Shown here one piece after another: positions 19,625-38,042 of a stretch of 38,875 bases of DNA. The position numbers and the translations under genes were made by a program. Each line of letters starts with the position of its first letter. Within the stretch, counting starts at the first letter, position 1. Origin of the DNA: a virus; IMG/VR virus record IMGVR_UViG_3300043425_000122, positions 1 to 38,875 of that record; one strand, given 5' to 3'. Below the pieces are notes generated by a model. That model was not told the origin of the DNA. It saw only the letters and a list, made by a program, of their open reading frames with translations, and made no database searches.

Positions 19625-21337
19625 ATGTCAATATCAACCATTGCAAGAACCAACACTATTGATGAATGGAGAATTCAGACCAACCAATCTGCGTTGGAAT
19701 TGAATAAACTTGAGTCAGGTACTTATACTAAGTATGACGGTACATTGATTTTAAGTAATAATTCTACCATGATTATTACTGCAAATGGTGTTGGCTTACA
19801 AGTTTCTAATACTGCTTTATTTCAATCTGAAGTTATTATCGGTAGAGAACTTGATATCGGTGTTCAATCATCACAAACAGGTAACGTTGTTATTGGTAGA
19901 GAGTTATCTGTATTAGGTCCTAACACTTCATTATACGTTGCTAACAATGCAACTGTAAATTCTCTTACTGTTAATGCTAGTGCTTCTTTTGGTGGTACAA
20001 TAGTTAGTAACCGCTTATCTTCTAATTCAAGCATCGTAAATACAAACATTGAGGTTTTAGGTACTGCTTCAGCAAACACTTTAATTGCTAATAATGTATA
20101 CGCAAATTCTAACGTATATGTCACAGACACAATTACTACAGATAACATTAGTACTAGATTGTTATCTAGTGATGTTGCTACAGTTAACACTTTCTTAACA
20201 GTATACGGTGACGGTATCGTTGAAGGTGACTTTGTTATTCGAGGTACATTCACTCAAGTAGGTAACACTGTTATTTCAACAGATACGTTAACACTTAATG
20301 CAAATACATTAGTAGATAAAAATGCATATATCACGAATGAAAGAAATACTGGCAATAATGCTTCTATTATTTGGAATGAACAATTTGATGTATGGCAAAT
20401 CACAAGAGGAAATACAGCAACCATTTCTTCTATTGTTGATGAATCTTTAATTATCGATTCACCAGTTTCATCTAATACATCATTAATTCCTACAGCAAGT
20501 GCATTAAGAGTTGCTTATTTAACTGCTGGTGGTTATGCTAACAATGCATACTTACATGCTAATGCATCTTATGTAAGTCAAAATACAACAGGTGTTTATG
20601 CTAATGCGGCATTTGCTTTAGCCAACACAGCTTTACTTCAAGGTGGTGTAATTACTGGTGGTTATGCTAACTCAGCTTTCATCAAAGCAAACAGTGCTTT
20701 TGATACTGCAAATACAGCATTATTACAAGGTGGTGTAATTACTGGTGGATATGCTAACTCAGCATTCGCTAGAGCAAACACTGCGGTTCTTAATGCGGCT
20801 AGTGCTTCATCATATGCTAATAGTGCTTATGCTGTAGCTAACTCAGCGTTTATAACAGCAGGAAACGCTTTACCTAAATCTGGCGGTACAGTTACCGGTG
20901 CTCTAACAGTAACAGCCGATGTTAATGTTTCAGGATATACAGTAACTGCGGCATTGTTTAGTGGTACAGCAACTACAGCAAGATACGCCGACTTGGCTGA
21001 GAAATATACAACCGACCAAGAATATGAAGTTGGTACAGTTATTGTTGTTTCAACAGTAGAAACTTCTGAAGCTACTCAATCATATGATGATGCTCAAGTT
21101 GTTCTTGGAGTTATTTCTGAAAATCCAGCTTACTTAATGAATAATGATAGCGAAGGCCAACCAATCGCCTTGCGTGGTCGTGTTCCAGTTAAAGTTCTTG
21201 GTCCAGTTAATAAAGGCCAAACTTTAATTTCAACTAAAGATGGTTATGCTATAGCTGGTTCTGGTGAAAATAAATTTGCGATTGCTCTTGAATCAATCAA
21301 TACTGTTGAAGGAATGATTGAAGCCGTTATTCTATGA
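19625..21337 (+). CDS. Tail fibre 1 with ANxA-type repeats and peptidase-G2-like C-terminal domain
   Basis: A 570-residue protein. The N-terminus (SISTIARTNTIDEWRIQTNQ) is a virion-attachment type seen in marine T4-like phage fibres. Residues about 25-300 are Asn/Ser/Thr-rich beta repeats. Residues about 300-415 carry YANSAF..ANTA-type repeats, including two nearly identical copies of a GGVITGGYANSAF unit. The last 120 residues begin ARYADLAEKYTTDQEYEVGT and include VVLGVISENPAYLMN, resembling the phage peptidase-G2 / intramolecular chaperone domain (pattern D-x-A-E ... LG-x-I-S-x-N-P). Such domains trimerise and can self-cleave; activity is not shown. Its stop overlaps the next start (ATGA), coupling it to the enzyme island. 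Confidence 0.85.
   Translation: MSISTIARTNTIDEWRIQTNQSALELNKLESGTYTKYDGTLILSNNSTMIITANGVGLQVSNTALFQSEVIIGRELDIGVQSSQTGNVVIGRELSVLGPNTSLYVANNATVNSLTVNASASFGGTIVSNRLSSNSSIVNTNIEVLGTASANTLIANNVYANSNVYVTDTITTDNISTRLLSSDVATVNTFLTVYGDGIVEGDFVIRGTFTQVGNTVISTDTLTLNANTLVDKNAYITNERNTGNNASIIWNEQFDVWQITRGNTATISSIVDESLIIDSPVSSNTSLIPTASALRVAYLTAGGYANNAYLHANASYVSQNTTGVYANAAFALANTALLQGGVITGGYANSAFIKANSAFDTANTALLQGGVITGGYANSAFARANTAVLNAASASSYANSAYAVANSAFITAGNALPKSGGTVTGALTVTADVNVSGYTVTAALFSGTATTARYADLAEKYTTDQEYEVGTVIVVSTVETSEATQSYDDAQVVLGVISENPAYLMNNDSEGQPIALRGRVPVKVLGPVNKGQTLISTKDGYAIAGSGENKFAIALESINTVEGMIEAVIL
20639..20748 (+). repeat. Tandem intragenic repeat in tail fibre 1
   Basis: The same 23-base string (starting CAAGGTGGTGTAATTACTGG) occurs at 20639-20661 and 20726-20748, 87 bases apart. 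It encodes QGGVITGG followed by YANSAF in both copies. A multiple of three preserves frame, so this is a coding repeat suited to unequal recombination. Confidence 0.85.
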
Positions 21338-21858
21338 TTTCATTACTTGAGTTTGAGAATTTTGTTCACTCTAAATTAGTTTACGAACAAAATATTATAT
21401 CTGTTATTGATGAAGACGGTAAACAAATATATCTTAATAGTCTAGGTGACTTGTACAAATACAATGCCTGCACTATTAAGATAGAACAGATGGAAAAATA
21501 CAATCAAAGTATTTTTAATTTCTGTAAAGAATTAGCAATCAAATATAATCATGATGGTCCTGTGTCATGTCATGCTTTTAGAGCATTCAAAGATTCTGTT
21601 AGTTTTGGCTTGCACACTGACCCTGATGACGTTATAATTCTCGGTGTAGCCGGGATTAAGTGGATGAATATAGATTCTAAAGAACACTGTATTGGTCCAA
21701 ATCAATCAGTATTAATTCCTGCTAATACTCCTCATGAAGCATTAAATAAAGAAGATTCATTAATGCTCAGTTTCGGTTTAGAACATTTTTTAAAAGATAA
21801 AGTGATTAGTTATGAATTGGATGTTTTATCTGAAGACGACCGAAACGTGCAACCTTAA
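21334..21858 (+). CDS. Putative JmjC/cupin-type Fe(II) oxygenase (island enzyme 1)
   Basis: A 174-residue protein. The core (about residues 88-152) has H94-T-D96 followed by VIILGVAGIKWM, matching the JmjC/cupin pattern H-x-D ... L-x-V-x-G-x-K-x-W of ribosomal-oxygenase-like hydroxylases. A later H134 in IPANTPHEA is the likely third metal ligand, and SFGLEHF closes the barrel. The small size suggests a single cupin domain without partner domains. Its ATG overlaps the fibre 1 stop by four bases and its 3-prime end overlaps the radical SAM gene by 47 bases. A protein hydroxylase, perhaps of fibre or precursor protein, is the likely role; the substrate is unknown. A non-catalytic cupin is possible. 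Confidence 0.65.
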   Translation: MISLLEFENFVHSKLVYEQNIISVIDEDGKQIYLNSLGDLYKYNACTIKIEQMEKYNQSIFNFCKELAIKYNHDGPVSCHAFRAFKDSVSFGLHTDPDDVIILGVAGIKWMNIDSKEHCIGPNQSVLIPANTPHEALNKEDSLMLSFGLEHFLKDKVISYELDVLSEDDRNVQP

Positions 21859-22873
21859 TTGTAAGCACTGTTTCACCAATGGAATCAATGGACCTAAAAT
21901 CTATTGGAATCATATCAAAGTAGCAAATTGGATTAAAAGATTTGCTGAATATCGAAAAGACTCAATCAAAGAAGATTCTCTACACTGTGAGTTTCATGGC
22001 GGTGAACCTTTCTTAGCACCTGTAGAACAAATGAGATATGTATGGAATGAATGTAAAAGTTTATTTCCTGAGATGTCATGGGGTATTACTACAAACTTAG
22101 TATTCAAACTAACTGATGATAAAATAGATTTTATTAAAAATTGTTTGAATAATAGATTAGGCACTAGTTGGGACCCTAAGATTAGATTCGATAACGAAAA
22201 GCAATCTACATTATGGGCTGAAAATGTCAAGACTTTAGTTCAAAAAAACGTTGACATAAAACTTTTTATTAGTGTTACTAAAGATACTATCGAGATTGAG
22301 CCTATCAAATTACTGGAATGGGTAAGAAGTTTAGGTGTCAAAGAGTTAGCATTCGAACGACTTACGGGTAATGGTAATGCTAATTTGCATCCTGAAATAT
22401 TTCCATCTAACATAGAACAAGATGCATGGTTCTTAAAGATGCATAATCAATCTGAAGAATATGGTGCTAGAGAATGGTTTGATAATGAGTTTTTAGAGAT
22501 TGTTTATGAGAAATTTGAAAACAACTTCACCAAAGGTGGCACATTCTGTCGAGACTGTGAAGAAAAGATATTCACGATTAATGCAACTGGAAGTATATCT
22601 GGATGTCCTAATTCGGCACCGGAGTTTCAATTTGGACATCTAGATGATTCTATAGAAACTCTTATAAATAGTCCTACTAGAGTACAAAATATTGCTTGCG
22701 AACGTGCACGAGACACTAGATGTTTTTCTTGTGATGTTTTTGAATATTGTGGTGGCGATTGTCACCAGTTATCATGGCAAGATGATGTTTGCGGTGCTCC
22801 AAAAAGTTTAATGAGACAACTGAAGACTAACACTAAAAAGAAGATTTGGATAATAAATGGCATCACTAGATAA
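21812..22873 (+). CDS. Radical SAM protein with complete SPASM domain (island enzyme 2)
   Basis: A 353-residue protein. The [4Fe-4S]-SAM motif C13-x3-C17-x2-C20 is in CNLNCKHC, and the GGEP SAM-amino-group motif is present (HGGEPFL). The C-terminal third has the full SPASM signature: Cx10Gx4C (CEEKIFTINATGSISGC), then Cx2Cx5Cx3C (CFSCDVFEYCGGDC) and a final Cys in DDVCG. SPASM enzymes bind two auxiliary clusters and mostly modify peptides or proteins (sactipeptide, AnSME, PqqE, mycofactocin types). The start overlaps the upstream gene by 47 bases, and an internal ATG at 21821 is also possible. Its last 17 bases overlap the Cys-His-repeat protein, making that protein the prime substrate candidate. 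Family call firm; reaction unknown. Confidence 0.88.
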   Translation: MNWMFYLKTTETCNLNCKHCFTNGINGPKIYWNHIKVANWIKRFAEYRKDSIKEDSLHCEFHGGEPFLAPVEQMRYVWNECKSLFPEMSWGITTNLVFKLTDDKIDFIKNCLNNRLGTSWDPKIRFDNEKQSTLWAENVKTLVQKNVDIKLFISVTKDTIEIEPIKLLEWVRSLGVKELAFERLTGNGNANLHPEIFPSNIEQDAWFLKMHNQSEEYGAREWFDNEFLEIVYEKFENNFTKGGTFCRDCEEKIFTINATGSISGCPNSAPEFQFGHLDDSIETLINSPTRVQNIACERARDTRCFSCDVFEYCGGDCHQLSWQDDVCGAPKSLMRQLKTNTKKKIWIINGITR

Positions 22874-23426
22874 TCCTATTACCCCACAGAATATTGTTGA
22901 CAGATTTGCTGACTATGTTGTTGCAACAGGAAACTCAAATATTGCTTGGGGATATAATGCATATCCATTTGCTGAGTTTGATGGTAACTATTTTGGTGGT
23001 TACACTTCTGGTAAAGGCATCGGTATCAATGGAGGAAGTGTAGGAGTTACAGGAAGTTTAGTCACAGCTTCTTCAATTGTTAATGCATTAGTAAACGAAA
23101 CTTATGCATATACGAATATCAGAAATTTGAGAGCATTATTATTTGTTGATGGCGGCGGTGGTAATACAGGCTCACGACCAACACCAGGATATGTTTATGA
23201 TGCTACGGCGATTGCATACCTAAACGGAAACTATTTACAAGGTTTTGGTTGGAGTACTATGGGTGTAGATGCAGGACAAAATGTATCTGCTGGTAATTTA
23301 GAGTCGTTTTTTAGTCACTTAAGAGATATCTTAAATAATGCAAGAGCACAGACGGTTACAGTTCAAATTAATGTATGTCATGCTTCTTGTCATTCAAATT
23401 GTCATGGTTCAAGAGGAAGAAGATAA
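22857..23426 (+). CDS. Candidate modified protein with C-terminal CHxx repeat
   Basis: A 189-residue protein that I do not recognise. The body is Gly/Asn/Tyr/Ala-rich (GYNAYPFAEFDGNYFGG; GINGGSVGVTGS; DGGGGNTGSRPTPGY), like an adhesin or fibre tip. A helix about residues 147-162 (LESFFSHLRDILNNA) leads to TVTVQINV and then a tetrapeptide repeat, CHAS-CHSN-CHGS, ending in RGRR. All three Cys (174, 178, 182) and three of the four His lie in the last 16 residues, a pattern expected of a RiPP-type core or a metal site. It begins inside the SPASM gene (17-base overlap). Role as substrate is inference. Alternatives are a metal-binding adhesin or a disulfide-linked fibre tip. Confidence 0.75.
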   Translation: MASLDNPITPQNIVDRFADYVVATGNSNIAWGYNAYPFAEFDGNYFGGYTSGKGIGINGGSVGVTGSLVTASSIVNALVNETYAYTNIRNLRALLFVDGGGGNTGSRPTPGYVYDATAIAYLNGNYLQGFGWSTMGVDAGQNVSAGNLESFFSHLRDILNNARAQTVTVQINVCHASCHSNCHGSRGRR

Positions 23427-23432
23427 TATATT

Positions 23433-24161
23433 ATGAGTTTAGTGAGAACAGTAGCACCTATATCAATCGACAATCTAAAACAATATTTTACAGATAAATC
23501 AATATCTTATCAGATTGATTATGCTAATAGTACATTAAAAGGTTCTAAGTTACTGACTTATTTAAGTAATCTTGATATACCAGCAGATATAGATTTTAAA
23601 GATTGTTCAGAACAAGAACGATTAGAATTAATTAAAGATTATTTACATAGTGGCATGTTGTTGAACGTGACTTCTTTAGAAAAAGAAGTTATTTTAATTA
23701 TGCTTGAATTAAAGAGCATGACCGACTCAACAATTTATAAACAATTTATCGAAGACAACATTGAGATTGTTAAGAAATGGGTTTCTAGAATTGATAGTTT
23801 GATTTTGTATAATCTATACATTATCGATTCTGAAGAAATGAAGAATTATGTGAAGCAGTTTCCTGAAGATAATACAGATAGCAACGAAGGAATTAACTTT
23901 GTAAGCTTACTGAAACATGAGTTTTTCTATACATTATTCGGTCGTATTGACCAAAGTAGTTTGAGATTCTACTCTAAATATTTTGATGAGTATATGTTCA
24001 AAGGTAAAAACATGTATTCTTATTGGGCTAACAATAATAACCCAATGTATATGTTAACAGTAGGTATCTCAGAACAATTATTTAAAAACGAAGAATACAT
24101 AGAAGCAAAACAAAATTCTGTAAAAGAATTAGAGGAGTTAATTAATGTTACACCTGTTTAA
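23433..24161 (+). CDS. Island protein of unknown function A
   Basis: A 242-residue protein, acidic and apparently all-helical, with no metal-binding motif, signal peptide or membrane segment seen. Notable stretches are the N-terminal ISIDNLKQYFTDKSISYQID, a hydrophobic helix around VILIMLELKSM, and LLKHEFFYTLFGRIDQSS near residue 165. It lies between the CHxx-repeat protein and another unknown, overlapping the latter by 17 bases. Possible jobs are a scaffold, chaperone or recognition partner for the neighbouring enzymes, but nothing in the sequence proves any of these. No family recognised. Confidence 0.7.
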   Translation: MSLVRTVAPISIDNLKQYFTDKSISYQIDYANSTLKGSKLLTYLSNLDIPADIDFKDCSEQERLELIKDYLHSGMLLNVTSLEKEVILIMLELKSMTDSTIYKQFIEDNIEIVKKWVSRIDSLILYNLYIIDSEEMKNYVKQFPEDNTDSNEGINFVSLLKHEFFYTLFGRIDQSSLRFYSKYFDEYMFKGKNMYSYWANNNNPMYMLTVGISEQLFKNEEYIEAKQNSVKELEELINVTPV

Positions 24162-25227
24162 GAAAACCTACATTCAAATCGATTCGTTGATTGATGTTAA
24201 AAACGATAGATTGGTTATATCTAAATCTGTGGGTATGCCTGATGGTACTAAAGTATCTATTGGTGAAGTATTACATCACGTTGATGATATAACAAAGATT
24301 GTAGGTAAAGGTAAAGAATACGAAAGTGTTTTTTCATTACTTAAAACTATCTCGCAACAAAATGATACAAATGACCGTCCTTTTGTTATCTATGCAGACC
24401 AATCAGCATTCTTAACTATTGTGTGTGCTTGGTTCAAAGCTATTTTTGCAAACATCGATTCTGTTTCTGCTCACAAAATTATTAAAGCACACTTTGATAG
24501 AGAAAAACTTGTTGGAAGTTTAGAGACTAAAGACTTTGATGCATTCGACACATTCGAACCATCACTTGCTGAATGGGAAGCAGTCTTTGGTAAAACAACA
24601 GTGACTGTAGCTGAAGCAACAGATATTCTTACTACTGTAGGATACAACTTAAGTATTGAATTCTTGTTATCATCTTATGTTTATAATAAGACTCAAAAAG
24701 CTAAATTAAAAGTAGCAATTCAAAAATTAGTTAAACGTCAAATCGAACAAACTATTATTGAAGCCAAGTATACTGTGAATAGAAAACTATTACGTAAACA
24801 ATTTACAGATAGACTTGGTGTTACATTAAATACTTTTGATAATATTGATGCTTATAGTACAGACCCTGCACTTAAAATTATCAATGACTCTAGTTTCATG
24901 AGTCATATAGGTACACCTAGATTTGGTAAACAATCAAACATTGATTTGAAATCTATTAGTGATGCTGATATTGTATTGTTGGATTCATTTATTAATAAAG
25001 TATATCCTGAATTAGAATATAAAGAATACTTTCAATCATATTTAAAATATGTACGTAAAACAGAATTGACTGATGCTGACTTAGATGCATTTATTGCTAA
25101 TGAGTGTGTTGCTGAAGAACCATTCTGTTCAACAATTGATTTAGAAAATATCAATATCTATTTTATTGATTACGTATTACAAAATGTCAAATCACCTGAG
25201 AAATTGAAAGCTTATTTAATAAGATAA
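24145..25227 (+). CDS. Island protein of unknown function B
   Basis: A 360-residue protein that I cannot place in a family. A strong GAGGAG ribosome site precedes the ATG although it starts inside the previous gene. The N-terminus is beta-like (FKKTYIQIDSLIDVKNDRL, SVGMPDGTKVSIGEV). The middle contains VIYADQSAFLTIVCAWFKAIF, a possible hydrophobic core helix, followed by basic helices (KLKVAIQKLVKRQIEQTI, NRKLLRKQFTDRLGV). The C-terminal part is acidic and helical. It contains only a few scattered Cys, so a metal enzyme is unlikely. One base separates it from the downstream oxygenase gene. A structural role cannot be excluded. Confidence 0.7.
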   Translation: MLHLFKKTYIQIDSLIDVKNDRLVISKSVGMPDGTKVSIGEVLHHVDDITKIVGKGKEYESVFSLLKTISQQNDTNDRPFVIYADQSAFLTIVCAWFKAIFANIDSVSAHKIIKAHFDREKLVGSLETKDFDAFDTFEPSLAEWEAVFGKTTVTVAEATDILTTVGYNLSIEFLLSSYVYNKTQKAKLKVAIQKLVKRQIEQTIIEAKYTVNRKLLRKQFTDRLGVTLNTFDNIDAYSTDPALKIINDSSFMSHIGTPRFGKQSNIDLKSISDADIVLLDSFINKVYPELEYKEYFQSYLKYVRKTELTDADLDAFIANECVAEEPFCSTIDLENINIYFIDYVLQNVKSPEKLKAYLIR

Positions 25228-25228
25228 T

Positions 25229-25747
25229 ATGCACTCGTTATTTAAAAATGGATACTGTAATTGGTTAGCAACAGATTTAGCAGACCAATTACAGGTTGAT
25301 GATTTAGAGTTTGACCCTAAAACTTCTCATATTAGTAGACTTCCTACTAACAATCAAGATTATGTTAAGACTATGTTGAATGTATTACACAATCAAATAG
25401 CACTAACATACATACAACCTTATGCACATTCATATGAATTATTAGAATCTGACATAAAAGGTAATCTACCAAAAGATTCTAAATTTTGCCAGTTTCATTC
25501 TGATGCTGATGAACCATCAAACGTATTCTTTTTACTTTACTTTAATGATATGAGTGAAATAAAAGAAGGTGGATTGTATGTCGGTGATGATGTCATCTAT
25601 CCTAGATATGGTGAATTAATCGCTGTATTAAATGATAATCCTAAAATATTACATAGAGCAGGTTACACCGAACATAGAAGAATTGTAGCTTGTTTTGACT
25701 TTATAGTGAATTGGAATCATGAATCAATTAGCAAATCTTGGATTTGA
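25229..25747 (+). CDS. Putative 2-oxoglutarate/Fe(II) oxygenase (island enzyme 3)
   Basis: A 172-residue protein with prolyl-4-hydroxylase-like features: metal ligands H90-S-D92 (QFHSDADEP) and H142 (KILHRAGY), with R150/R151 in the place of the 2-oxoglutarate-binding Arg (EHRRIVACF). The EGGLYVGDDVIYPRYGELI segment between them fits the GGxL and PxxGxxxxF strands of the fold. The family hydroxylates proteins, nucleic acids or small molecules; the size (single domain) suits the short phage versions. It is packed between unknown B and a second oxygenase, with a 29-base overlap. Substrate unknown. Confidence 0.75.
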   Translation: MHSLFKNGYCNWLATDLADQLQVDDLEFDPKTSHISRLPTNNQDYVKTMLNVLHNQIALTYIQPYAHSYELLESDIKGNLPKDSKFCQFHSDADEPSNVFFLLYFNDMSEIKEGGLYVGDDVIYPRYGELIAVLNDNPKILHRAGYTEHRRIVACFDFIVNWNHESISKSWI

Positions 25748-26354
25748 TTACTACGAAAAAGGTTTTGTAAATACAAAAATACCTGATGAGTTGATGTCTG
25801 ATTTCTGGATGCAAATATATACAACAGAATGGATTAAAAGTAAATCGGTATTCAAAACAGTTCCTGATTGGTATATAGAAGGTCAACCTGTCGATATTCA
25901 AGGTGATGATGCTCACATGGAATTTGAATATAGAGCAAATCGATTGAATTTAGAACGATGTCCCGATTCTTTAAAAGAATTATCTGAAAAACTAATAAAC
26001 AATTCTATATTTGATTTTTTGCGTATAGTTAGACCTATACACGAAATTTCACATATACATCTATGGAATGGTGCAGAAGGTGGTGACTATCACCAAGATG
26101 TGATAGACGGCACAAACACATTAGTGTTATGCTATCTTACTGAAACAGAATGGAAGTCATCTTATGGTGGAAGTTTATCTGTTACTAAGAAACTTTTAAA
26201 CAAGCATAAGTATACGACTAAGATATTACCGAACGCAGGAACGATGATAATTATTAATAATGATAATCCTTTGTTTATGCATAAAGTTGAAGAATTGAAA
26301 GCAAATGTTAATAGATATACTTTTGCTTTCTCTTATAAGTGGAAAATTAAATGA
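25719..26354 (+). CDS. Putative 2-oxoglutarate/Fe(II) oxygenase (island enzyme 4)
   Basis: A 211-residue protein. The candidate facial triad is H125-Q-D127 (YHQDVIDGTNTLVLCYL) and H188 (PLFMHKVEE), with R199 (NVNRYTFAFSYKW) for the co-substrate. The YGGSLSV and PNAGTMIII segments fit GGxL and the late barrel strand. The N-terminal 100 residues (DYYEKGFVNTKIPDELM) contain the lid helix common in these enzymes. It differs from the preceding oxygenase in sequence, so it is not a recent duplication. Its stop overlaps the next radical SAM start by four bases (ATGA), indicating coupled translation. Substrate unknown. Confidence 0.75.
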   Translation: MNQLANLGFDYYEKGFVNTKIPDELMSDFWMQIYTTEWIKSKSVFKTVPDWYIEGQPVDIQGDDAHMEFEYRANRLNLERCPDSLKELSEKLINNSIFDFLRIVRPIHEISHIHLWNGAEGGDYHQDVIDGTNTLVLCYLTETEWKSSYGGSLSVTKKLLNKHKYTTKILPNAGTMIIINNDNPLFMHKVEELKANVNRYTFAFSYKWKIK

Positions 26355-27352
26355 TTGCAGAAAAAGTAATTAACAATACTAAGAGAACCGAAACAGGTGA
26401 GATTATTGTGACTCTATTTGAGTACTGTGATATCTCATGCTTGTTTTGTGCTCAAGACCATAACAGTATGGCAGGTATTGATACAATCAAAGACAAGATA
26501 GAACCTATCAAAAAAGCAATCGCAGAATTACAAAAGAAAGGTAAAACAGTATTCACCATTAATATTATGGGTGGTGAAGTGTTTTCTGATAAGTTACCTG
26601 ATAGTGTATATGATGATTATGTGATATTGGTACACTCTATCAAATCATATTGTTCAGATAATAATATCGAAGTCAGTGTTCAATTCACGACTAACTTTAT
26701 TTGGACTAATACACAACGAGTTAGTGCTTTCTTAGAAAAGACTAAAGTTAAATTGTATACTAGTTATGACCCCTCAGGTCGTTTTAATGTTGATACATTC
26801 AAATTATTCACAAGAAATGTATTTGAGTTTACTCCTCATATTAGGTCAGTCAATGTAATTATGACTAAACCTAATCTTGATAGATTTGTGACTAACGTTG
26901 TACCTTTCTTCGACTATCTATACAAACATTTTCCAGTATACTTTGATTATTATACTCCAGAAAAGCATATGGATGTTTTGCTTCCTAAAGACTACGAACT
27001 TAGAAACTTCATGAAATATATGTATGATGTTTGGCCTAACTGTAGTCCATTCAATGGTTTCAACAACAAAACAAAACAAAACATGTCATGTATGGACACA
27101 TACACAATCATGCCAAACGAAGACTTTGGTCGATGCGATATACTGCTAAAGGGTGTTATACCTATCAAGTTGATTCCATCTAAAAAAGATTTAGAGCAAG
27201 CTTGGTTTGATGATTATAAATGTTTAGAATGTGAACACTTTAATAGATGTTCTTTAGGATGTTTCTTGAGTAATCATATTAAAGATGCTAGAACACAAGA
27301 AGAATGTTGGTTGAAAGAAGTATATGATTATGTGGACAATAAATGGAATTAA
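26351..27352 (+). CDS. Radical SAM protein with SPASM-like C-terminus (island enzyme 5)
   Basis: A 333-residue protein. C26-x3-C30-x2-C33 in CDISCLFC binds the catalytic cluster, followed by the MGGEVF motif in place of GGEP. The C-terminus has Cx12GxC (CMDTYTIMPNEDFGRC) and Cx2Cx5Cx3C (CLECEHFNRCSLGC) plus a final Cys in EECW, an almost complete SPASM set with a shortened first half. This suggests at least one and perhaps two auxiliary clusters. It overlaps the upstream oxygenase by 4 bases and the downstream paralogue by 10. It is divergent from the other three radical SAM proteins, so the four probably do different steps or act on different residues. Confidence 0.85.
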   Translation: MIAEKVINNTKRTETGEIIVTLFEYCDISCLFCAQDHNSMAGIDTIKDKIEPIKKAIAELQKKGKTVFTINIMGGEVFSDKLPDSVYDDYVILVHSIKSYCSDNNIEVSVQFTTNFIWTNTQRVSAFLEKTKVKLYTSYDPSGRFNVDTFKLFTRNVFEFTPHIRSVNVIMTKPNLDRFVTNVVPFFDYLYKHFPVYFDYYTPEKHMDVLLPKDYELRNFMKYMYDVWPNCSPFNGFNNKTKQNMSCMDTYTIMPNEDFGRCDILLKGVIPIKLIPSKKDLEQAWFDDYKCLECEHFNRCSLGCFLSNHIKDARTQEECWLKEVYDYVDNKWN

Positions 27353-28410
27353 TAATTAAACCTACTGAGAAATGTAATTTCAAATGTACGTTTTGTTCTA
27401 GCACTAAAATAACAGAAGATAAAACTGCTGAACTTGACCATGATTACATCTTTCAATTCTTAGAACGATTTCCAGAAACGAACACTATCATAGTGAATGG
27501 TGGTGACCCATTGATGATGGAACCAGAATACTACTGGAAAATTATCAGACATCTAGACGCAATAAATTCACCAGCAACTTTATCACTAACAACAAACTTA
27601 TGGCCGTTCTATAAGAATCCTGAAAAATGGAAAGACTTATTCAACCACAAACGTGTTGGAGTAACAACATCATTTCAGTATGGTGGCGGTAGACTAAAAG
27701 GCGACTTATCTGAATTTAGTGAAGAAGACTTTTGGAATGTATCTGATGCAATGCTTGAACACTGTGGATATAGACCTGATTTCATTTCAGTAATCACTGA
27801 AGAAAACTGTCATATGGCAATCAAGAATGTGGAACTTGCTAAAGAAATGGGTGTTGAGTGTAAACTTAATTACGCACTTTCTTCAGGTCCTCCAGTAAAA
27901 TTCAAGAATATCATAATGGGACAAGAAGGTAAACCATTCTTATTAGCAGACATATATGAAATTTATGTGGAAATCTGGAAAAAAGATTTACATCATTGGG
28001 AATATAATACGCTTCAAATGATTAAGCGTTTAAAAGGTAATGCAACATCTTGCCCACAAAATAGAAACTGTGATTCGAATATTAGAACATTACAACCATC
28101 AGGCGACTATTATTCTTGCGGTGCTTTTGGTGATGATAGAGAGTATTCAATCGACTTCAAAGAAGAGATGTCTGGTAATAAAATATTTCCATTAAAGTTT
28201 CAACCTGAATTACAAAGCTTGAAACAATCTTGCTTCACATGTCCTATGTTTGAGATATGTAATGGTTGTAAGAAGACAATCAAAGATTTGAAAACACACA
28301 ATCTAGTAGAAGTACATTGTTTCAAAATGAAGTCATTAGCGGGTGACATTATCGAAGCTAATGGACTAGATTTAGAGGTGACAGAATATGTCGATGAACA
28401 TATCTATTAA
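27343..28410 (+). CDS. Radical SAM protein with SPASM-like C-terminus (island enzyme 6)
   Basis: A 355-residue protein. C11-x3-C15-x2-C18 in CNFKCTFC is near the N-terminus, followed by NGGDPLM in the GGEP position. The C-terminal domain has Cx10Gx4C (CDSNIRTLQPSGDYYSC) matching SPASM exactly, then Cx2Cx5Cx2C (CFTCPMFEICNGC), one residue shorter than the norm, and a last Cys in EVHCFKM. It is thus a SPASM enzyme likely to hold two auxiliary clusters. The N-terminus is short, with no recognition-element domain before the catalytic Cys motif. It overlaps the next radical SAM gene by 23 bases. Confidence 0.87.
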   Translation: MELIIKPTEKCNFKCTFCSSTKITEDKTAELDHDYIFQFLERFPETNTIIVNGGDPLMMEPEYYWKIIRHLDAINSPATLSLTTNLWPFYKNPEKWKDLFNHKRVGVTTSFQYGGGRLKGDLSEFSEEDFWNVSDAMLEHCGYRPDFISVITEENCHMAIKNVELAKEMGVECKLNYALSSGPPVKFKNIIMGQEGKPFLLADIYEIYVEIWKKDLHHWEYNTLQMIKRLKGNATSCPQNRNCDSNIRTLQPSGDYYSCGAFGDDREYSIDFKEEMSGNKIFPLKFQPELQSLKQSCFTCPMFEICNGCKKTIKDLKTHNLVEVHCFKMKSLAGDIIEANGLDLEVTEYVDEHIY

Positions 28411-29311
28411 CCCTTGGTACTTTTGTAACTTTGATTGTGACTTTTGTTACCTAACGAAAACACAATTAAGAGATAAAAAGCTATTATCATTAGACAGATT
28501 ATCCGAGATGTTAGCAGAAATTGTGCAGACAACTGATATTGAAATGGTAGATGTATATGGCGGTGAAGTTGGCTTATTACCTAAAGACTACTGGAACGAC
28601 TTTATTAGTATACTGCAAATTTACGGTATACAAGATATAAATTTAATCACTAATTTATCGATGATAAATGAAATTACTATCGATAAACGAGTTTATACGT
28701 CGGTTAGTTTTGATTTTGAAGCTAGAGAATCATATGAATTAGTTTTGAAGAATATGGCTTTACTGAACAAACCATTTTCTATTTTGATGTTAGCCTCACC
28801 AAAATTACTAACACAAAACGTTGATGAGATGATATCAGTATTGAATACGTTTACAAATTTAGAATCAGTAGAGATAAAACCATACAGCACAAATCAAGCA
28901 AATCAATATGACGTTAAGTTTTCAGACTTTGAAGAATTTGTTAAGAAGTGGATTATCAACACAGATAAAAACTTCAAACTAACAAACGAATCTTTAATTA
29001 TATCATCACTTGAGAAGAAAAGAAACAGTTTTTCAGACAATCATATATACATTACACCATCAGGAAAATATGGAGTACTGGAATTCGATTTGAATGATAA
29101 TGAATTTTTCTTAGAATATGATTCTTTAGATAAATATTTTGAGTGGTGTGAGACAGAAAAGAAGAGAGTTTCTAAAAATAAATTCTGTTCAAACTGTAAA
29201 TATTATGGCAACTGTTTATCCGAACACTTGAGAGATGTTAAATCTTTAACTAATAGTTGCAACGGTTTTAAATTACTTTTGGATTGGTATGATGAACGAC
29301 TGGAAAGTTAG
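28388..29311 (+). CDS. Radical SAM protein with reduced C-terminal cluster domain (island enzyme 7)
   Basis: A 307-residue protein, the shortest of the four. The catalytic motif C13-x3-C17-x2-C20 is in CNFDCDFC, with VYGGEVG in the GGEP position. The C-terminal domain is reduced: Cx2Cx5C (CSNCKYYGNC) and a later Cys in LTNSCNG, with a YITPSGKYGVLEF strand replacing the usual first Cys pair. This pattern fits a twitch or single auxiliary cluster. The start MSMNISINPWYFCNF places the cluster motif very near the N-terminus. It overlaps both neighbours by 23 bases. Family call firm; reaction unknown. Confidence 0.83.
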   Translation: MSMNISINPWYFCNFDCDFCYLTKTQLRDKKLLSLDRLSEMLAEIVQTTDIEMVDVYGGEVGLLPKDYWNDFISILQIYGIQDINLITNLSMINEITIDKRVYTSVSFDFEARESYELVLKNMALLNKPFSILMLASPKLLTQNVDEMISVLNTFTNLESVEIKPYSTNQANQYDVKFSDFEEFVKKWIINTDKNFKLTNESLIISSLEKKRNSFSDNHIYITPSGKYGVLEFDLNDNEFFLEYDSLDKYFEWCETEKKRVSKNKFCSNCKYYGNCLSEHLRDVKSLTNSCNGFKLLLDWYDERLES

Positions 29312-29702
29312 ACAAGAAATTTTTCATAGACTACACACAGAACATGATGATGACTTGAAGACTAAAAATATTCTATTGTCAAATAATATTGTTGATGATG
29401 CGATACGATACTTCACTGATAGTACTATGGGTTGGGTATATCCAGCTAAGAGTTATATGGTCGCAATTTGCTACGCTAGATGGATATCTGAAACATTTGG
29501 TGAAGACTTCATCGACTGTTTAAATGATAAAGATTTGTTATATGGTAACGACCCATACTTCTTACCTTATAGTGAAAACAAAGGTGTCTATAATCAAATA
29601 TTGGAATCTATAGATTATTTAAATTTTGATGTAACAAAAGGAATGGTTCCTCATGTTAGAAGTTATTTTGATGAAGAGTTTATGTTAAATGAGTATGCTT
29701 AA
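29289..29702 (+). CDS. Small island protein C, unknown, paired with an oxygenase
   Basis: A 137-residue helical protein: NDWKVRQEIFHRLHTEHDDD, then WVYPAKSYMVAICYARWI and DCLNDKDLLYGNDPYF, ending in GMVPHVRSYFDEEFML. Similar proteins next to 2-oxoglutarate oxygenases in marine T4-like phages come to mind, but I cannot name a family or confirm this. There are two adjacent in-frame ATGs (29289, 29292). It overlaps the upstream radical SAM gene by 23 bases and the downstream oxygenase by 14. A partner or substrate adaptor for the oxygenase is possible; nothing shows catalysis. Confidence 0.65.
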   Translation: MMNDWKVRQEIFHRLHTEHDDDLKTKNILLSNNIVDDAIRYFTDSTMGWVYPAKSYMVAICYARWISETFGEDFIDCLNDKDLLYGNDPYFLPYSENKGVYNQILESIDYLNFDVTKGMVPHVRSYFDEEFMLNEYA

Positions 29703-30258
29703 TCTTTGGCAAACGTCGGTATTAATTGAAGATGTTACAGATACCGAATTACTGGATTACACTATCAATTATTTGTTGATGAATAAAGATACTTTGGTTG
29801 GTAAAGAAAGTGCTGATGATTCTTTACTTGAAAAACCAGAAATGCAAAGAGTTAAGAATGATATATTTAAACCAGCTTTTAATTCATACTTAAATCAAAC
29901 ATTGAATAAAAATATTGATGATTGGCACGGTCATAAGATGAATGGTTGGTTAGTTTCATATGCTCAAGGTCAGGCACTCAATTATCATAATCATAGAGGA
30001 AGTCAACTTAGTTCAGTTTTGTATCTTATAGCTGACGATTCGGAATCTGGCGGTGAAATAGTTTTTACTGACCCTAGACAAAATGCCAATAGAGGATATG
30101 ATTTAAGTTTTCAAGAATGGTTTGCTCCACTAAAACATAAACCTGTTTGCGGTCAAATAGTAGTCTTTCCTAGTTTTTTATATCATTATGTAACAACATA
30201 TCAAAGTAATATCAGATTAGCTGTTCCAACAGACTTATTTCTATTCAATTCAAGATAA
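29689..30258 (+). CDS. 2-oxoglutarate/Fe(II) oxygenase, phage 2OG-FeII_Oxy_5-like (island enzyme 8)
   Basis: A 189-residue protein. The motif LNYHNHRGSQLSSVLYLI (H100, H102) followed by GGEIVFTDPR and VCGQIVVFPSFLYHYVTTY (H166) with R176 matches the phage-rich 2OG oxygenase family whose signature is H-x-H-x4-LS-x-VYY ... DPR ... FPSxLxHxV. It is the best-conserved oxygenase of the island. It closes the overlapping gene string; a 37-base gap containing a late promoter then begins the second fibre module. An alternative ATG at 29695 would remove only two residues. Substrate unknown; family members in cyanophages are likewise uncharacterised. Confidence 0.85.
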   Translation: MSMLNLWQTSVLIEDVTDTELLDYTINYLLMNKDTLVGKESADDSLLEKPEMQRVKNDIFKPAFNSYLNQTLNKNIDDWHGHKMNGWLVSYAQGQALNYHNHRGSQLSSVLYLIADDSESGGEIVFTDPRQNANRGYDLSFQEWFAPLKHKPVCGQIVVFPSFLYHYVTTYQSNIRLAVPTDLFLFNSR

Positions 30259-30295: not shown

Positions 30296-30628
30296 GTGGC
30301 GGCATTCTCAGAAATTACAATTGAACAAGGCGCAACATTTAACTCAACAGTTAGTGTTGAAGACGTATACGGTACTCCTGTTAATTTAACAGGATATACA
30401 ACTTCATCAATGATGCGAAAATCATATTATTCAACAACCGCAATCACTATTAATTCGACTATAACTGGAACAGCTAATGGTGAAATTACATTAAGTATTC
30501 CGGCAAGTAATACCTCAAATATAACTCCAGGCAGATATGTGTATGATGTTATCGTAACTGACAGCCTAAATACAGTAACAAGAGTTGTAGAAGGAATCGC
30601 AACAGTGCTTCCATCCGTTACGAGGTAA
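30296..30628 (+). CDS. Small Ig-like fibre/baseplate linker with GTG start
   Basis: A 110-residue beta protein starting at GTG, supported by AAGGA at seven bases and a late promoter upstream. Pattern: ITIEQGATFNSTVSVED, PVNLTGYTT, GEITLSIPASNT and PGRYVYDVIVTD, ending LPSVTR. This resembles small phage proteins with a BppU-N-like immunoglobulin fold that connect receptor-binding parts to the tail. There are no ATG alternatives near the start of the conserved region, which supports GTG. Role inferred from fold-like pattern and neighbours. Confidence 0.75.
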   Translation: MAAFSEITIEQGATFNSTVSVEDVYGTPVNLTGYTTSSMMRKSYYSTTAITINSTITGTANGEITLSIPASNTSNITPGRYVYDVIVTDSLNTVTRVVEGIATVLPSVTR

Positions 30629-35026: not shown

Positions 35027-36202
35027 ATGCCAAATACACAATTACAACTAAGACGCGGTAATACAGCACAGACAGCCATCTTTACAGGTGCTGTTGCTGA
35101 AGTTACTGTAGATACCGATAAAAAGACGCTGATAGTCCATGACGGATTAACGCAAGGCGGTATCGAGATTGCCAAAAGAGCAGATTTATTAGTATCGTTT
35201 AATGCCGCAAACTCTGCTGGCAGTTATGCTAATGGTGCTTTTGGTGTTGCAAACACAGCAACAATTAACGCGGCTCAAGCAGACCAAAAAGCATTAAGTG
35301 CTGGTTCATATGCTAACGGTGCTTTTGCACAAGCGAATACCGCAAATACATATGCCGCAACAGCACAAATTCACGCACATGCCGCATATCATCAAGCAAA
35401 CACGGCAACTACTGACGCTGAAACTGCTGGTGAATATGCTAATAGTGCATACGCTAAAGCAAATACTGCCATCACATCTTTAGCTGGATATGCTACCGAA
35501 TCTTACGTTGGTACAGCGATTTCTAATTTAGTCGACTCAGCACCTACAACATTAGACACTTTAAATGAATTAGCGGCCGCATTAGGTGATGATGCCAACT
35601 TTGCAACTACAATTAGTAACATGGTTGGTGTTTCCGGTGGATATGCTAACAGTGCTTTCGCTAAAGCTAATACAGGTACTACATTAGCACAAGCGGCTTT
35701 TGATGCGGCAAACACTGCTAGTAGCGGTTCATCGAATACATTATCTAGCGGCACACAAACAGTATCTTTGAATAATAGCGGAGTTATTACTTTACCTGCA
35801 TCGAGTACTTTGTACAATAACACAGCTTCATTATCAACAAATACTGCAAATCAAGTAATTGATACTTTTAGTACAACATCTTTCAGAACAGTTAAGTATT
35901 TAATTCAAGCTATATCGGGTGGTGATGTTCACTCAACCGAATTGCTATTAACTCATAATGACAATTTAACTTATACTAACGAAACATCAAACACGTCTTC
36001 GTCAGTTTTATTTAATTTATATTCAAGCATTTCAGGTGGAAATGTTAGATTGAATGTTTCACCTGTATTTGAAACAACAACTATTGATTTCGTTAGAACC
36101 GCAATAATTGCAAGAACACTATCAAGTCTAGAAGGTGATTTTATGTCTCTTTCTGGTACCGAAGATTTACAAACTGGTTCAGGCACAGTAGATTTGAACT
36201 AA
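35027..36202 (+). CDS. Tail fibre 4, ANTA-repeat fibre with Mtd-N-like start
   Basis: A 391-residue protein. The N-terminus LQLRRGNTAQTAIFTGAVAE with a following TLIVHDG closely fits the phage fibre attachment pattern LRRGT-x-A-Q ... G-E/A-x-x-x-D ... DG (major-tropism-determinant N-terminal type). Residues about 55-150 hold ANSAY..ANTA repeats. Around 165-200 is the common fibre element APTTLDTLNELAAALGDDAN, shared with fibre 5. The C-terminal domain (about 240-391) contains QVIDTFSTTSFRTVKYLIQ and SGGDVHSTELLL, related to the fibre 3 tip. A receptor-binding role is inferred. Confidence 0.82.
   Translation: MPNTQLQLRRGNTAQTAIFTGAVAEVTVDTDKKTLIVHDGLTQGGIEIAKRADLLVSFNAANSAGSYANGAFGVANTATINAAQADQKALSAGSYANGAFAQANTANTYAATAQIHAHAAYHQANTATTDAETAGEYANSAYAKANTAITSLAGYATESYVGTAISNLVDSAPTTLDTLNELAAALGDDANFATTISNMVGVSGGYANSAFAKANTGTTLAQAAFDAANTASSGSSNTLSSGTQTVSLNNSGVITLPASSTLYNNTASLSTNTANQVIDTFSTTSFRTVKYLIQAISGGDVHSTELLLTHNDNLTYTNETSNTSSSVLFNLYSSISGGNVRLNVSPVFETTTIDFVRTAIIARTLSSLEGDFMSLSGTEDLQTGSGTVDLN
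35519..35622 (+). repeat. Duplicated fibre element, copy 1 (fibre 4)
   Basis: Encodes the LDTLNELAAALGDDANFATT element with flanking ISNLVD. The second copy is in fibre 5 at 36419-36522. DNA differences are mostly third-position, consistent with duplication and purifying selection. Confidence 0.85.
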
Positions 36203-36250: not shown

Positions 36251-37147
36251 ATGGCAAAAACGCTACAATTTAGAAGAGATACCACAGCAAACTTAGCTAG
36301 TGTTACTGGTGCTGTAGGTGAAATTTTCATCGATTTAACAAAAGACACCGTTGTCGTTATGGATGGTTCTACTGCTGGTGGTAAACCATTGGCGACCGAA
36401 TCATATGTTACAACAGCAGTTTCTAACTTAGTTGATGCGGCTCCTGGCACACTAGACACTCTAAACGAATTAGCGGCAGCCTTAGGTGATGATGCTAACT
36501 TTGCAACAACTATCAGTACAACAATTGGCGTTGCGGGTTCATATGCCAATAGTGCTTATACACAAGCCAATACAGCAACTACAAATGCGGCAACTGCTGA
36601 CCAACGAGCAGTAACTTCTGGTGTTTATGCTAACACAGGGTTACAAAGAGCAAACACTGCTGGTTCATATGCTAATAGTGCATATACGAAAGCTAATACA
36701 GCACAACTTCACGCTCAGGCGGCATTTAATACCGCAAATACTGCTGGCGCAAATCAATCATTAAATACTACGGATAATGTTGTGTTTGCTTCTGGATTAA
36801 TTGGTGAAGTTTCTATTGTTGCTAATACAGTCTCAGCATTAGACTCATATGGTATGCCAGGTGGTACGTTAATAATTGATGGCAATATTTCAATTCCAAC
36901 AATCGATCCATTAGCAATAGGATCATACATGTTCTTGAGATTATCTTCTAGTTATGGGTCTAATGTGCTACCAGGACAAGATGTAATTTCTACTACGGCA
37001 TCTGGTCCCCTCTCGGCAGCAGGTGTTAAGACAACTGGTGCAGTAGTCAACTGGACTAATGTTGATGGAACATGGAGATGTATGGGTTATGCTGGTGTGT
37101 CCACAGAATCATCGCATATATCAACTTTATGGTATAGAGTTTCTTAA
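36251..37147 (+). CDS. Tail fibre 5, short ANTA-repeat fibre
   Basis: A 298-residue protein. N-terminus MAKTLQFRRDTTANLASVTG with AVGEIFIDLTKDTVVVMDG is the same attachment type as fibre 4. The shared LDTLNELAAALGDDANFATT element is at about residues 63-82. ANSAY..ANTA repeats follow (about 95-165), including the 23-base string also found in fibre 2. The C-terminal 120 residues differ from fibres 3 and 4 (SGLIGEVSIVANTVSALDSY, SYMFLRLSSSYGS, VVNWTNVDGTWRCMGYAG), i.e. the stem is conserved and the tip replaced. It is the last fibre gene; the next ORF starts three bases after its stop. Confidence 0.8.
   Translation: MAKTLQFRRDTTANLASVTGAVGEIFIDLTKDTVVVMDGSTAGGKPLATESYVTTAVSNLVDAAPGTLDTLNELAAALGDDANFATTISTTIGVAGSYANSAYTQANTATTNAATADQRAVTSGVYANTGLQRANTAGSYANSAYTKANTAQLHAQAAFNTANTAGANQSLNTTDNVVFASGLIGEVSIVANTVSALDSYGMPGGTLIIDGNISIPTIDPLAIGSYMFLRLSSSYGSNVLPGQDVISTTASGPLSAAGVKTTGAVVNWTNVDGTWRCMGYAGVSTESSHISTLWYRVS
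36419..36522 (+). repeat. Duplicated fibre element, copy 2 (fibre 5)
   Basis: Paralogous to 35519-35622 in fibre 4; encodes VSNLVDAAPGTLDTLNEL and continues AAALGDDANFATT. Same distance after the N-terminal domain is not kept, since fibre 5 lacks the intervening ANTA repeats of fibre 4. Confidence 0.85.
36599..36621 (+). repeat. Repeat copy 4, in fibre 5
   Basis: The 23-base core beginning GACCAACGAGCAGTAACTTC identical to the three copies in fibre 2, about 4-5 kb away. Supports exchange between paralogous fibre genes. Confidence 0.85.
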
Positions 37148-37150
37148 TTA

Positions 37151-37339
37151 ATGACAGATTTTTGCAATAAAGTAATAAAACCATATTCAACATATTGTGA
37201 TAAAATCTATATAGATTCTATTATCAATATGTTGAATTTTTCATATGATTATAATGACTATATTAAAAGTACGCGAGAGAAACTAATTGAAGCGAGAAAT
37301 AACACAACAAATTCCAAAAATAGTTTGGCAAACTGCTAA
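37151..37339 (+). CDS. Small ORF before the glycosyltransferase, uncertain
   Basis: A 62-residue frame starting three bases after the fibre 5 stop: MTDFCNKVIKPYSTYCDK, then IINMLNFSYDYNDYIKST. Its last 53 bases overlap the glycosyltransferase frame, which itself lacks an ATG. It may be a genuine small gene whose translation leads into the TTG start downstream, or the N-terminal part of a longer glycosyltransferase broken by a frameshift or an assembly error. I recognise no family. Lower confidence than neighbouring genes. Confidence 0.45.
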   Translation: MTDFCNKVIKPYSTYCDKIYIDSIINMLNFSYDYNDYIKSTREKLIEARNNTTNSKNSLANC

Positions 37340-38042
37340 ATCATTTCCTCATGTAAATTCTCATCCACTAATTAAATCTATTATTACTTTAAATCCTGAT
37401 TACGAATGGTTATTCATGGATGATGATAGATGCAATCAATTCATAAAAGATAATTTTAATTCAGATTTTTATAATATGTATAATTCATTACCATTTGGAG
37501 TAATGAAAGCGGATGTGTGGCGTGTTGCTGTTGTATATGTCTATGGTGGTGTTTATGTTGATATAGATTGTGAATGTTCAAAGCCATTCAGTGAATGGCT
37601 TAACGAAAAAGATAAATTAATTGTAGCAATCGAAAGAGAAAACGGAAGTCTTTGTAATTTTGCATTTGCATCATCACCAAAAAACCCAGTATTGCTTTCA
37701 GTATTGAATAATTTTATGAAATTATATAACAGTAATCTTTTCTTAGATAAATCACAAACTACCCCTATACAAAACTTTGGACAATTAGCATTTTCAGACG
37801 GCATTTTAGAATACTATGATATGCATGAGCACAATCATATGATGTTAGGTGGGACTTCAAATTATTATAACGAAAATAAAAATGTACAATTCGATAACAC
37901 CAAATTTATTTTGAAGCAAGATAATATTTTTACACCATACAAATATCCATCAACGTGTATATTTCATCAATCAGCTAGTATAACGTGGAGAAATTGCAAT
38001 TATGATTCGTGGCGCAGTGACGAAAAAGAGTATTTAAAATGA
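37287..38042 (+). CDS. GT32/OCH1-like glycosyltransferase, apparent TTG start
   Basis: A 251-residue reading. IPKIVWQTAKSFP near the N-terminus matches the IPKIIHQxW opening of the DXD-sugar (Gly_transf_sug, OCH1/GT32-type) family. The core KADVWRVAVVYVYGG then VYVDIDCECSKPF holds the metal-binding D92-x-D94. The late LGGTSNYY and FHQSASITWR segments fit the acceptor end. The frame is closed upstream by TAA at 37284-37286, so TTG at 37287 is the earliest possible start, which still includes the conserved IPK segment. It could transfer a sugar to phage or host surface structures; donor and acceptor unknown. It overlaps the next ORF by four bases (ATGA). Confidence 0.8.
   Translation: MKREITQQIPKIVWQTAKSFPHVNSHPLIKSIITLNPDYEWLFMDDDRCNQFIKDNFNSDFYNMYNSLPFGVMKADVWRVAVVYVYGGVYVDIDCECSKPFSEWLNEKDKLIVAIERENGSLCNFAFASSPKNPVLLSVLNNFMKLYNSNLFLDKSQTTPIQNFGQLAFSDGILEYYDMHEHNHMMLGGTSNYYNENKNVQFDNTKFILKQDNIFTPYKYPSTCIFHQSASITWRNCNYDSWRSDEKEYLK

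Follow-up and report, generated by a model that had tools for sequence, protein, structure and literature searches.

The IMG/VR virus record IMGVR_UViG_3300043425_000122 was analysed over its 38,875 nucleotides (hereafter the window; the record may be a fragment of a genome). It carries twelve tightly packed open reading frames (ORFs A–L, positions 21334-30258, plus strand), with a fibre gene upstream and a fibre module downstream. They encode four radical S-adenosylmethionine (rSAM) enzymes, four putative oxygenases and a protein, C, ending in a tail of the CHxxCHxxCHxxRxRR type. The gene content, the intact catalytic motifs, a constant linkage, the presence of an invariant tail on variable protein bodies and a fibre neighbourhood in both phages and bacteria were all observed directly. 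It is reasonably probable that the island is a maturation system resembling those of ribosomally synthesized and post-translationally modified peptides (RiPPs), which crosslinks and/or hydroxylates the flexible tail at the C-terminus of a folded protein that is associated with a fibre and contacts host or prey. The CHxx tail is strongly supported as the substrate because of its gene linkage and its invariance. An earlier, sequence-only reading of this DNA had proposed a protein-modification system remodelling a tail adhesin: the fibre-linked RiPP-like system is well supported by gene linkage, while we infer the modification itself, its chemistry, the virion location and the adhesive role. The ORFs are present as that reading had described them, nearly all overlapping and set between fibre modules: nine of the eleven junctions overlap by 4-47 nt, and at the other two the ORFs lie 6 and 1 nt apart.

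21334..21858, plus strand: A, cupin/JmjC-like putative Fe(II) oxygenase, 174 aa; weak PF08007/PF07883, phrog_8014, H94xD96 and H134
21812..22873, plus strand: B, radical SAM/SPASM enzyme 1 (rSAM1), 353 aa; TIGR04085, phrog_1802, CxxxCxxC plus 8 Cys
22857..23426, plus strand: C, CHxx-tail protein, 189 aa, predicted substrate; relatives in seven jumbo-phage records
23376..23423, plus strand: C-terminal tail of C, CHASCHSNCHGSRGRR, presumed modified segment; invariant Cys, His and three Arg
23433..24161, plus strand: D, core partner of the long-body class, 242 aa; phrog_20767, kept in phages and Bdellovibrionota
24145..25227, plus strand: E, accessory protein of most long-body loci, 360 aa; no clear PHROG match
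25229..25747, plus strand: F, 2-oxoglutarate (2OG)-Fe(II) oxygenase-like, 172 aa, variable accessory; H90xD92, H142, R151
25719..26354, plus strand: G, 2OG-Fe(II) oxygenase, 211 aa, variable accessory; PF13640, H125xD127, H188, R199
26351..27352, plus strand: H, radical SAM enzyme 2 (rSAM2), 333 aa; C26/C30/C33 plus 7 Cys
27343..28410, plus strand: I, radical SAM enzyme 3 (rSAM3), 355 aa, best conserved member; PF04055, C11/C15/C18 plus 8 Cys
28388..29311, plus strand: J, radical SAM enzyme 4 (rSAM4), 307 aa, abbreviated auxiliary domain; PF04055, C13/C17/C20 plus 4 Cys
29289..29702, plus strand: K, core small protein, 137 aa; phrog_20737, shared by the two body classes and Bdellovibrionota
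29689..30258, plus strand: L, 2OG-Fe(II) oxygenase, 189 aa, variable accessory; PF13759

The gene for the CHxx-repeat protein of the sequence-only reading is present, but the conserved unit proves to be its 16-residue C-terminal tail. The bodies carrying this tail vary freely, from about 120 to 360 aa, and do not have the short leader plus core organization of a RiPP precursor. All six Cys and His residues and the three Arg of the tail are 100% conserved among 128 representatives of less than 80% identity; since these were selected by pattern their invariance is by construction, and the set selected through rSAM1 (see below) is the unbiased check. The residue two positions after each His is Ser in 89, 75 and 87% of the representatives, otherwise Asn and occasionally Ala, Gln, Lys or Arg. 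The tail therefore contains His-Xaa-Ser repeats, and its logo conforms to the triceptide rule of an aromatic residue at i with a Ser/Asn/Ala/Arg-type partner at i+2. In the AlphaFold2 model of C the body is folded (mean predicted local distance difference test, pLDDT, 85.7) and the last six residues fall below 50. A BFVD fold search with this body retrieved, at E < 0.001, gp170 of Agrobacterium phage Atu_ph07, two other phage proteins of comparable length, and a pair from a single uncultured myovirus. Predicted folds like that of the CHxx body occur in A0A8S5USJ8, A0A8S5USJ7 and A0A8S5USV2 (BFVD, Myoviridae sp. ctijX18; 504-660 aa; E 7e-5 to 3e-3). One locus (L079), very divergent from the others, includes a CHxx protein with four repeats (CHSNCHSNCHSNCHTNRSRR) amid six rSAM matches.

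The linkage was assessed on IMG/VR loci obtained by scans seeded with rSAM1 (at least 44 loci, then the best 80 of 358 related candidates), in whose selection the tail motif played no part. All 67 distinct rSAM1 genes with at least 900 nt of downstream sequence have a canonical tail protein adjoining or within a few genes; an earlier count gave 40 of 42, the other two being truncated. Loci seeded with rSAM3 include a tail gene in 25 of 34 cases. Several of the nine remaining loci stop short of the expected position, one (L228) carries the tail gene farther along its contig (L352), and in three, of the short-body class, the tail genes lie beyond the fetched stretch. A scan with the tail pattern returned at least 100 viral loci, most of them beside rSAM1 and its partners. 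Of 18 records scanned over their whole length, almost all from the short-body class, 17 have rSAM matches. Among 50,697 phage records searched by tblastn, the B, C and D queries recover the same seven jumbo-phage records: Agrobacterium Atu_ph07 (two), Sinorhizobium Phosso, Burkholderia FLC6, FLC8 and SURPRISE13, and Pseudomonas DT01. The order cupin - rSAM1 - CHxx - (D) is kept in the four of these loci that were inspected. The match to C covers its C-terminus only (16-31% of the query), and the jumbo-phage proteins combine differing bodies with the shared end CHxSCHxSCHx(S/A)RxRR.

These genes thus occur together, rSAM, CHxx tail and fibre, across unrelated phages and Bdellovibrionota, and not as the scattered homologues without CHxx protein or fibres that the sequence-only reading had named as evidence against itself. 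That reading suggested looking for their co-occurrence in marine phage contigs; the genes are not confined to marine phages and are found in jumbo phages of soil, sewage and plant-pathogen hosts and in Bdellovibrionota chromosomes. The same data bear on a quite different role, in which the enzymes would form an auxiliary or host-takeover module that targets a host molecule, the CHxx protein serving as scaffold or regulator. The moron genes of phages do include 2OG oxygenases (phrog_81). However, rSAM1 is constantly linked to the tail protein, the module lies inside a structural operon and the same module is found near fibres in bacteria, which makes this the least probable of the explanations considered.

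Two classes can be distinguished according to the body. The long-body class comprises most loci and has D and usually E. The short-body class (for example L114, L049, L072 and L080) has as a rule two tandem proteins of about 127 aa (QLRTFDKT...RRTVDLIEGR) directly 3' of a fibre gene; it has neither D nor E but the same tail, with A, B, H, I, J and K present where the stretch is long enough. Since both classes share them, the tail plus A, B, H, I, J and K form the common unit. The number and position of the 2OG oxygenases F, G and L vary between loci. A fibre gene adjoins the cassette in both classes, and the enzymes might for this reason be supposed to modify the long fibre itself, the CHxx protein being a chaperone or adaptor. 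Such a role for the fibre, close by in most viral loci, is very improbable given that the alignment of fibre C-termini displays ordinary domain conservation and lacks any short motif that equals the CHxx tail in invariance. The tail fibre, the target in the sequence-only reading, gives way to a separate CHxx-tail protein partnering it as the likelier target.

An indirect link to the virion is provided by Atu_ph07. Mass spectrometry of its virions detected 131 proteins, mostly encoded in three gene clusters, one of which spans CDS 170-215 (PMC6102473). In the Atu_ph07 record, where the numbering was checked, gp170 is the CHxx protein and gp215 the major head protein. The CHxx protein therefore opens a published virion-protein cluster, the edges of which are presumably detected virion proteins.

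The system extends to bacteria. The tail DNA pattern has 19 matches in 257 Gb (84,980 genomes), three of which lack an ORF ending in the tail, and the reversed pattern has none in 291 genomes, indicating that the occurrence of the tail is not due to chance. The matches in Frankia, Pseudoalteromonas and Bordetella correspond to no ORF ending in the tail and were set aside as chance. Nine of the 19 are in Bdellovibrionota; several others resemble phage contigs binned in metagenome-assembled genomes. The longer Bdellovibrionota contigs carry housekeeping genes together with families B, D, H, I, J and K and extra rSAMs; the cluster is chromosomal. Several long-context loci have pseudopilin-type proteins with a Peptidase_S74 chaperone close by: the chaperone domain scores 48-62 bits (cut-off 22) in neighbours at L202, L207 and L201, and two of these three match the N_methyl pseudopilin motif. 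In B. bacteriovorus, S74 fibres mediate prey contact (PMC10769870). In the rSAM3 tree, 7 of 8 Bdellovibrionota sequences fall in one supported clade apart from the phages, the eighth having no resolved position. Recent transfer from phage to predator is not indicated by this topology; a single origin is neither shown nor excluded.

A protein of 180-210 aa ending in GRHWVKVK adjoins the pseudopilin/S74 genes. It is found once in each of the 9 tail-positive genomes and in 2 of 31 hand-picked control genomes (Fisher p = 2e-7). Of these two control genomes, one (G264, L269:8603-9169) has the GRHWVKVK protein and the full cluster with an altered tail, YCHTNVPTPPPCHASRGRR, which has two CH pairs instead of three. 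The other (G085, L271:9806-13268) has a different multi-rSAM cluster beside the GRHWVKVK protein, including a protein of 169 aa with Cys-rich N- and C-terminal ends (the latter CICNTDCACNAVCTCHNDCGCHY), which possibly represents a second, unrelated type of modified tail. The GRHWVKVK partner may thus be associated with rSAM-type tail proteins of more than one tail sequence. In Bdellovibrionota, the neighbours of the GRHWVKVK/pseudopilin genes repeatedly include small proteins whose N-terminus contains RR (Tat-like) and which have a Gly-Trp close to the C-terminal end (L202:9214-9594, minus strand; L271:13313-13687; L273:8614-8934, minus strand; L274:7130-7510, minus strand).

The catalytic residues of the enzymes were checked on family alignments of 15-125 members each. 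The CxxxCxxC motif is at least 98% conserved in all four rSAM families (B, H, I and J). The sequence-only reading had attributed SPASM-type C-termini to all four; SPASM-sized auxiliary sets (7-8 Cys) are indeed conserved in B, H and I, but J has only four conserved C-terminal Cys, a twitch-like arrangement. B is the only rSAM above the TIGR04085 SPASM cut-off (34.2 bits versus 27). In H, C26/C30/C33 plus 7 Cys are conserved across 100 members, and PF04055 is matched by I (41.9 bits) and J (32.5 bits). Viperin, an antiviral rSAM, was rejected as an assignment for rSAM4 (32.6 bits versus a cut-off of 180). The four putative oxygenases of the earlier reading resolve into three of 2OG type and one cupin/JmjC-like, with motifs conserved across relatives. 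In A, H94xD96 and H134 are 100% conserved in 103 members, with a weak match to Pfam JmjC_2 (20.8 bits versus 22). The HxD...H...R set is complete in F and G and conserved in their family alignments; G scores 32.1 bits with PF13640 and L, with H102, H166 and R176, 48.7 bits with PF13759 (cut-off 27 for both). No Pfam or NCBIfam match to a PqqD-like RiPP recognition element domain was obtained in the island. The structural model of D has a pLDDT of 90.5, and its fold search gave no clear PDB match (best Z 4.0 over 58 residues, under the trust level).

In the favoured mechanism, the folded body of the 189-aa protein would probably sit on the virion fibre or baseplate with its tail, CHxSCHxSCHxSRxRR, remaining flexible and being acted upon by the rSAM enzymes. 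The likeliest chemistry would be one modification per CHxx unit, a crosslink from His to the side chain at i+2 (H-x-S/N, in the geometry of a triceptide cyclophane) and/or a Cys thioether. Known rSAM crosslinks between i and i+2 include C2(His)-Cbeta(Ala) and aromatic-Cbeta(Ser) bonds (PMC11002830), and the H-x-S/N/A units of the tail fit this rule. PapB-like Cys thioethers, considered because PapB is the best NCBIfam match of rSAM1 (48.1 bits, E 9e-13), may be an alternative or an addition to the His crosslink. The cupin/JmjC protein and the optional 2OG oxygenases could add hydroxylations differing between phages and so diversify the product, and the invariant RxRR end may serve as a recognition or capping element. 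The resulting tip would be rigid and chemically unusual, would remain attached to the protein and would touch the host envelope. In some Bdellovibrionota the same machinery would act on a protein partnering pilus-like S74 fibres, presumably for prey contact. Contact with host or prey is suggested by the fibre neighbourhood in phages, the position at the edge of a virion cluster and the S74 fibres in a predator phylum.

Where several rSAMs are clustered with a Cys-rich peptide, the product is usually an excised RiPP. The CHxx protein could accordingly be a precursor whose tail is cut off as a free peptide or cofactor (bacteriocin-, PQQ- or mycofactocin-like) for use against the host or by the phage, and the low-score rSAM matches do include dynobactin, darobactin and PapB maturases. 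However, no protease or exporter was matched by Pfam among the twelve ORFs, which argues against release of a small product and suggests that the tail, once modified, probably remains attached to its body. The folded bodies in place of a short leader, the constant fibre linkage and gp170 at the edge of the Atu_ph07 virion-protein cluster likewise make excision quite unlikely. Retained on the protein, the tail might instead be mainly a metal-binding fibre tip, an oligomer stacking the three CH pairs into a column of metal ligands and the enzymes only tuning or protecting these Cys/His ligands. The T4 gp37 tip has HxH iron sites. Three perfectly conserved Cys-His pairs at a spacing of four, the low confidence of the tail end in the monomer model, the single case of four repeats and the fibre neighbourhood are all compatible with this. 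However, simple metal binding needs no rSAM, and the tail comes with four rSAM families; nor does it explain why RxRR is invariant or why S/N is preferred after each CHx. A metal tip is therefore unlikely.

Several points weigh against the covalently modified tail that we favour. Modification of the tail has not been observed. All the rSAMs score far below the cut-offs of the characterised maturase families of NCBIfam, so that the substrate is deduced from linkage. The body of C has no PDB fold match (best E 0.9; VIA best Z 2.1), leaving an adhesin fold unsupported. The virion evidence is the boundary of the published Atu_ph07 cluster and not peptide-level. Among the Bdellovibrionota, the canonical tail occurs in 8 of the 291 genomes sampled (about 3%), so the system is not required for predation, and the 31 GRHWVKVK controls were mostly larger genomes of the same phylum, without phylogenetic matching. 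A homology between the phage fibre C-terminal domain and the GRHWVKVK protein, plausible by eye, is unsupported (hhalign probability 17%).

A more far-reaching version of the modified tail is a surface-displayed RiPP, in which an assembly line of four rSAMs and oxygenases yields a rigid, multiply crosslinked fibre-tip peptide engaging a conserved envelope target, in phages and in separately maintained predator lineages. It would serve to recognize host or prey and would amount to a categorically new virion chemistry. This is a tentative proposal, somewhat less likely than its negation. If the modified tail is confirmed, it would to our knowledge be the first radical-enzyme maturation of a structural or receptor-contact protein of a phage. 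It would connect phage adsorption with prey recognition in predatory bacteria through a shared chemistry, and the tail could reveal a new envelope-binding chemistry. The invariant 16 residues make the idea directly testable by mass spectrometry on laboratory-grown phages.

Upstream of the island are T4-like baseplate genes (tube cap, hub/lysozyme and wedge subunits including gp8), followed by the fibre gene, which A overlaps by 4 nt; downstream are fibre genes. In most viral loci the C-terminal ADLAE...GRVPV domain of the upstream fibre protein adjoins the cassette. Farther along the window, two proteins (35027-36202 and 36251-37147) have an N-terminal Mtd_N (major tropism determinant) domain and are followed by a glycosyltransferase-like gene at 37287-38042.

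19625..21337, plus strand: upstream fibre protein, 570 aa; phrog_22593 / phrog_19602 tail fibre C-terminus
30296..30628, plus strand: small protein, frequent directly 3' of the cassette; conserved in many viral loci

The system resembles RiPP maturation yet departs from it in precursor length, in protease or exporter content and in family scores. It shares with the triceptide or three-residue cyclophane systems (XncB, OscB, MscB and HaaB) the rSAM/SPASM enzymes, the i/i+2 spacing and an aromatic first residue, which can be His (HaaB, ScaB) (PMC11002830). However, no island rSAM reaches the cut-off of XyeB, GrrM/OscB, FxsB, AmcB or YhhB, and here the modified segment would be the C-terminal end of a folded protein encoded within a structural operon, served by four rSAMs and several oxygenases. 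The His-Xaa-Ser system (HxsABCD, TIGR03978/TIGR03977) also has H-x-S units and more than one rSAM, with weak HxsB and HxsC similarity (32.6 bits versus a cut-off of 370 and 30.2 versus 267.9), but the CHxx protein matches no NCBIfam family and its units carry Cys and are C-terminal. Cys-spaced repeats and SPASM enzymes are common to the rSAMs with CXXX-repeat targets (TIGR04115) and the PapB ranthipeptide maturases (NF047865), although the island scores fall far below their cut-offs of 350 and 340. Pairs of the YhhB/YhhC and FlmE/FlmC type combine an rSAM with a 2OG oxygenase, and G weakly matches FlmC and YhhC; these scores are sub-threshold and the island has four rSAM families. The Bdellovibrio MAT fibres are likewise phage-like, S74-chaperoned and used for prey contact, but no rSAM is mentioned in their description (PMC10769870) and the cluster-adjacent fibres described here have pseudopilin-type N-termini, two of the three matching N_methyl in place of the signal peptide plus ~130-aa beta domain of MAT fibres. 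The literature covered, which leaves out most subscription journals, holds annotations only for phage rSAM/2OG tail modification, with no account of tail, linkage, bacterial counterpart or function; the sequence-only reading knew of no described phage system with such a set, and none matching was found. In jumbo phages FLC6 and S13, rSAM, cupin and 2OG proteins are annotated (PMC8066314, PMC11898562), and Aeromonas phage 332-Vera is reported to have eight rSAM genes within its structural cluster, called highly unusual (PMC12390700); the passages found in these papers name neither tail protein, linkage nor function. 332-Vera is likely another member of this system, which, if our interpretation is correct, would account for such jumbo-phage rSAM gene clusters.

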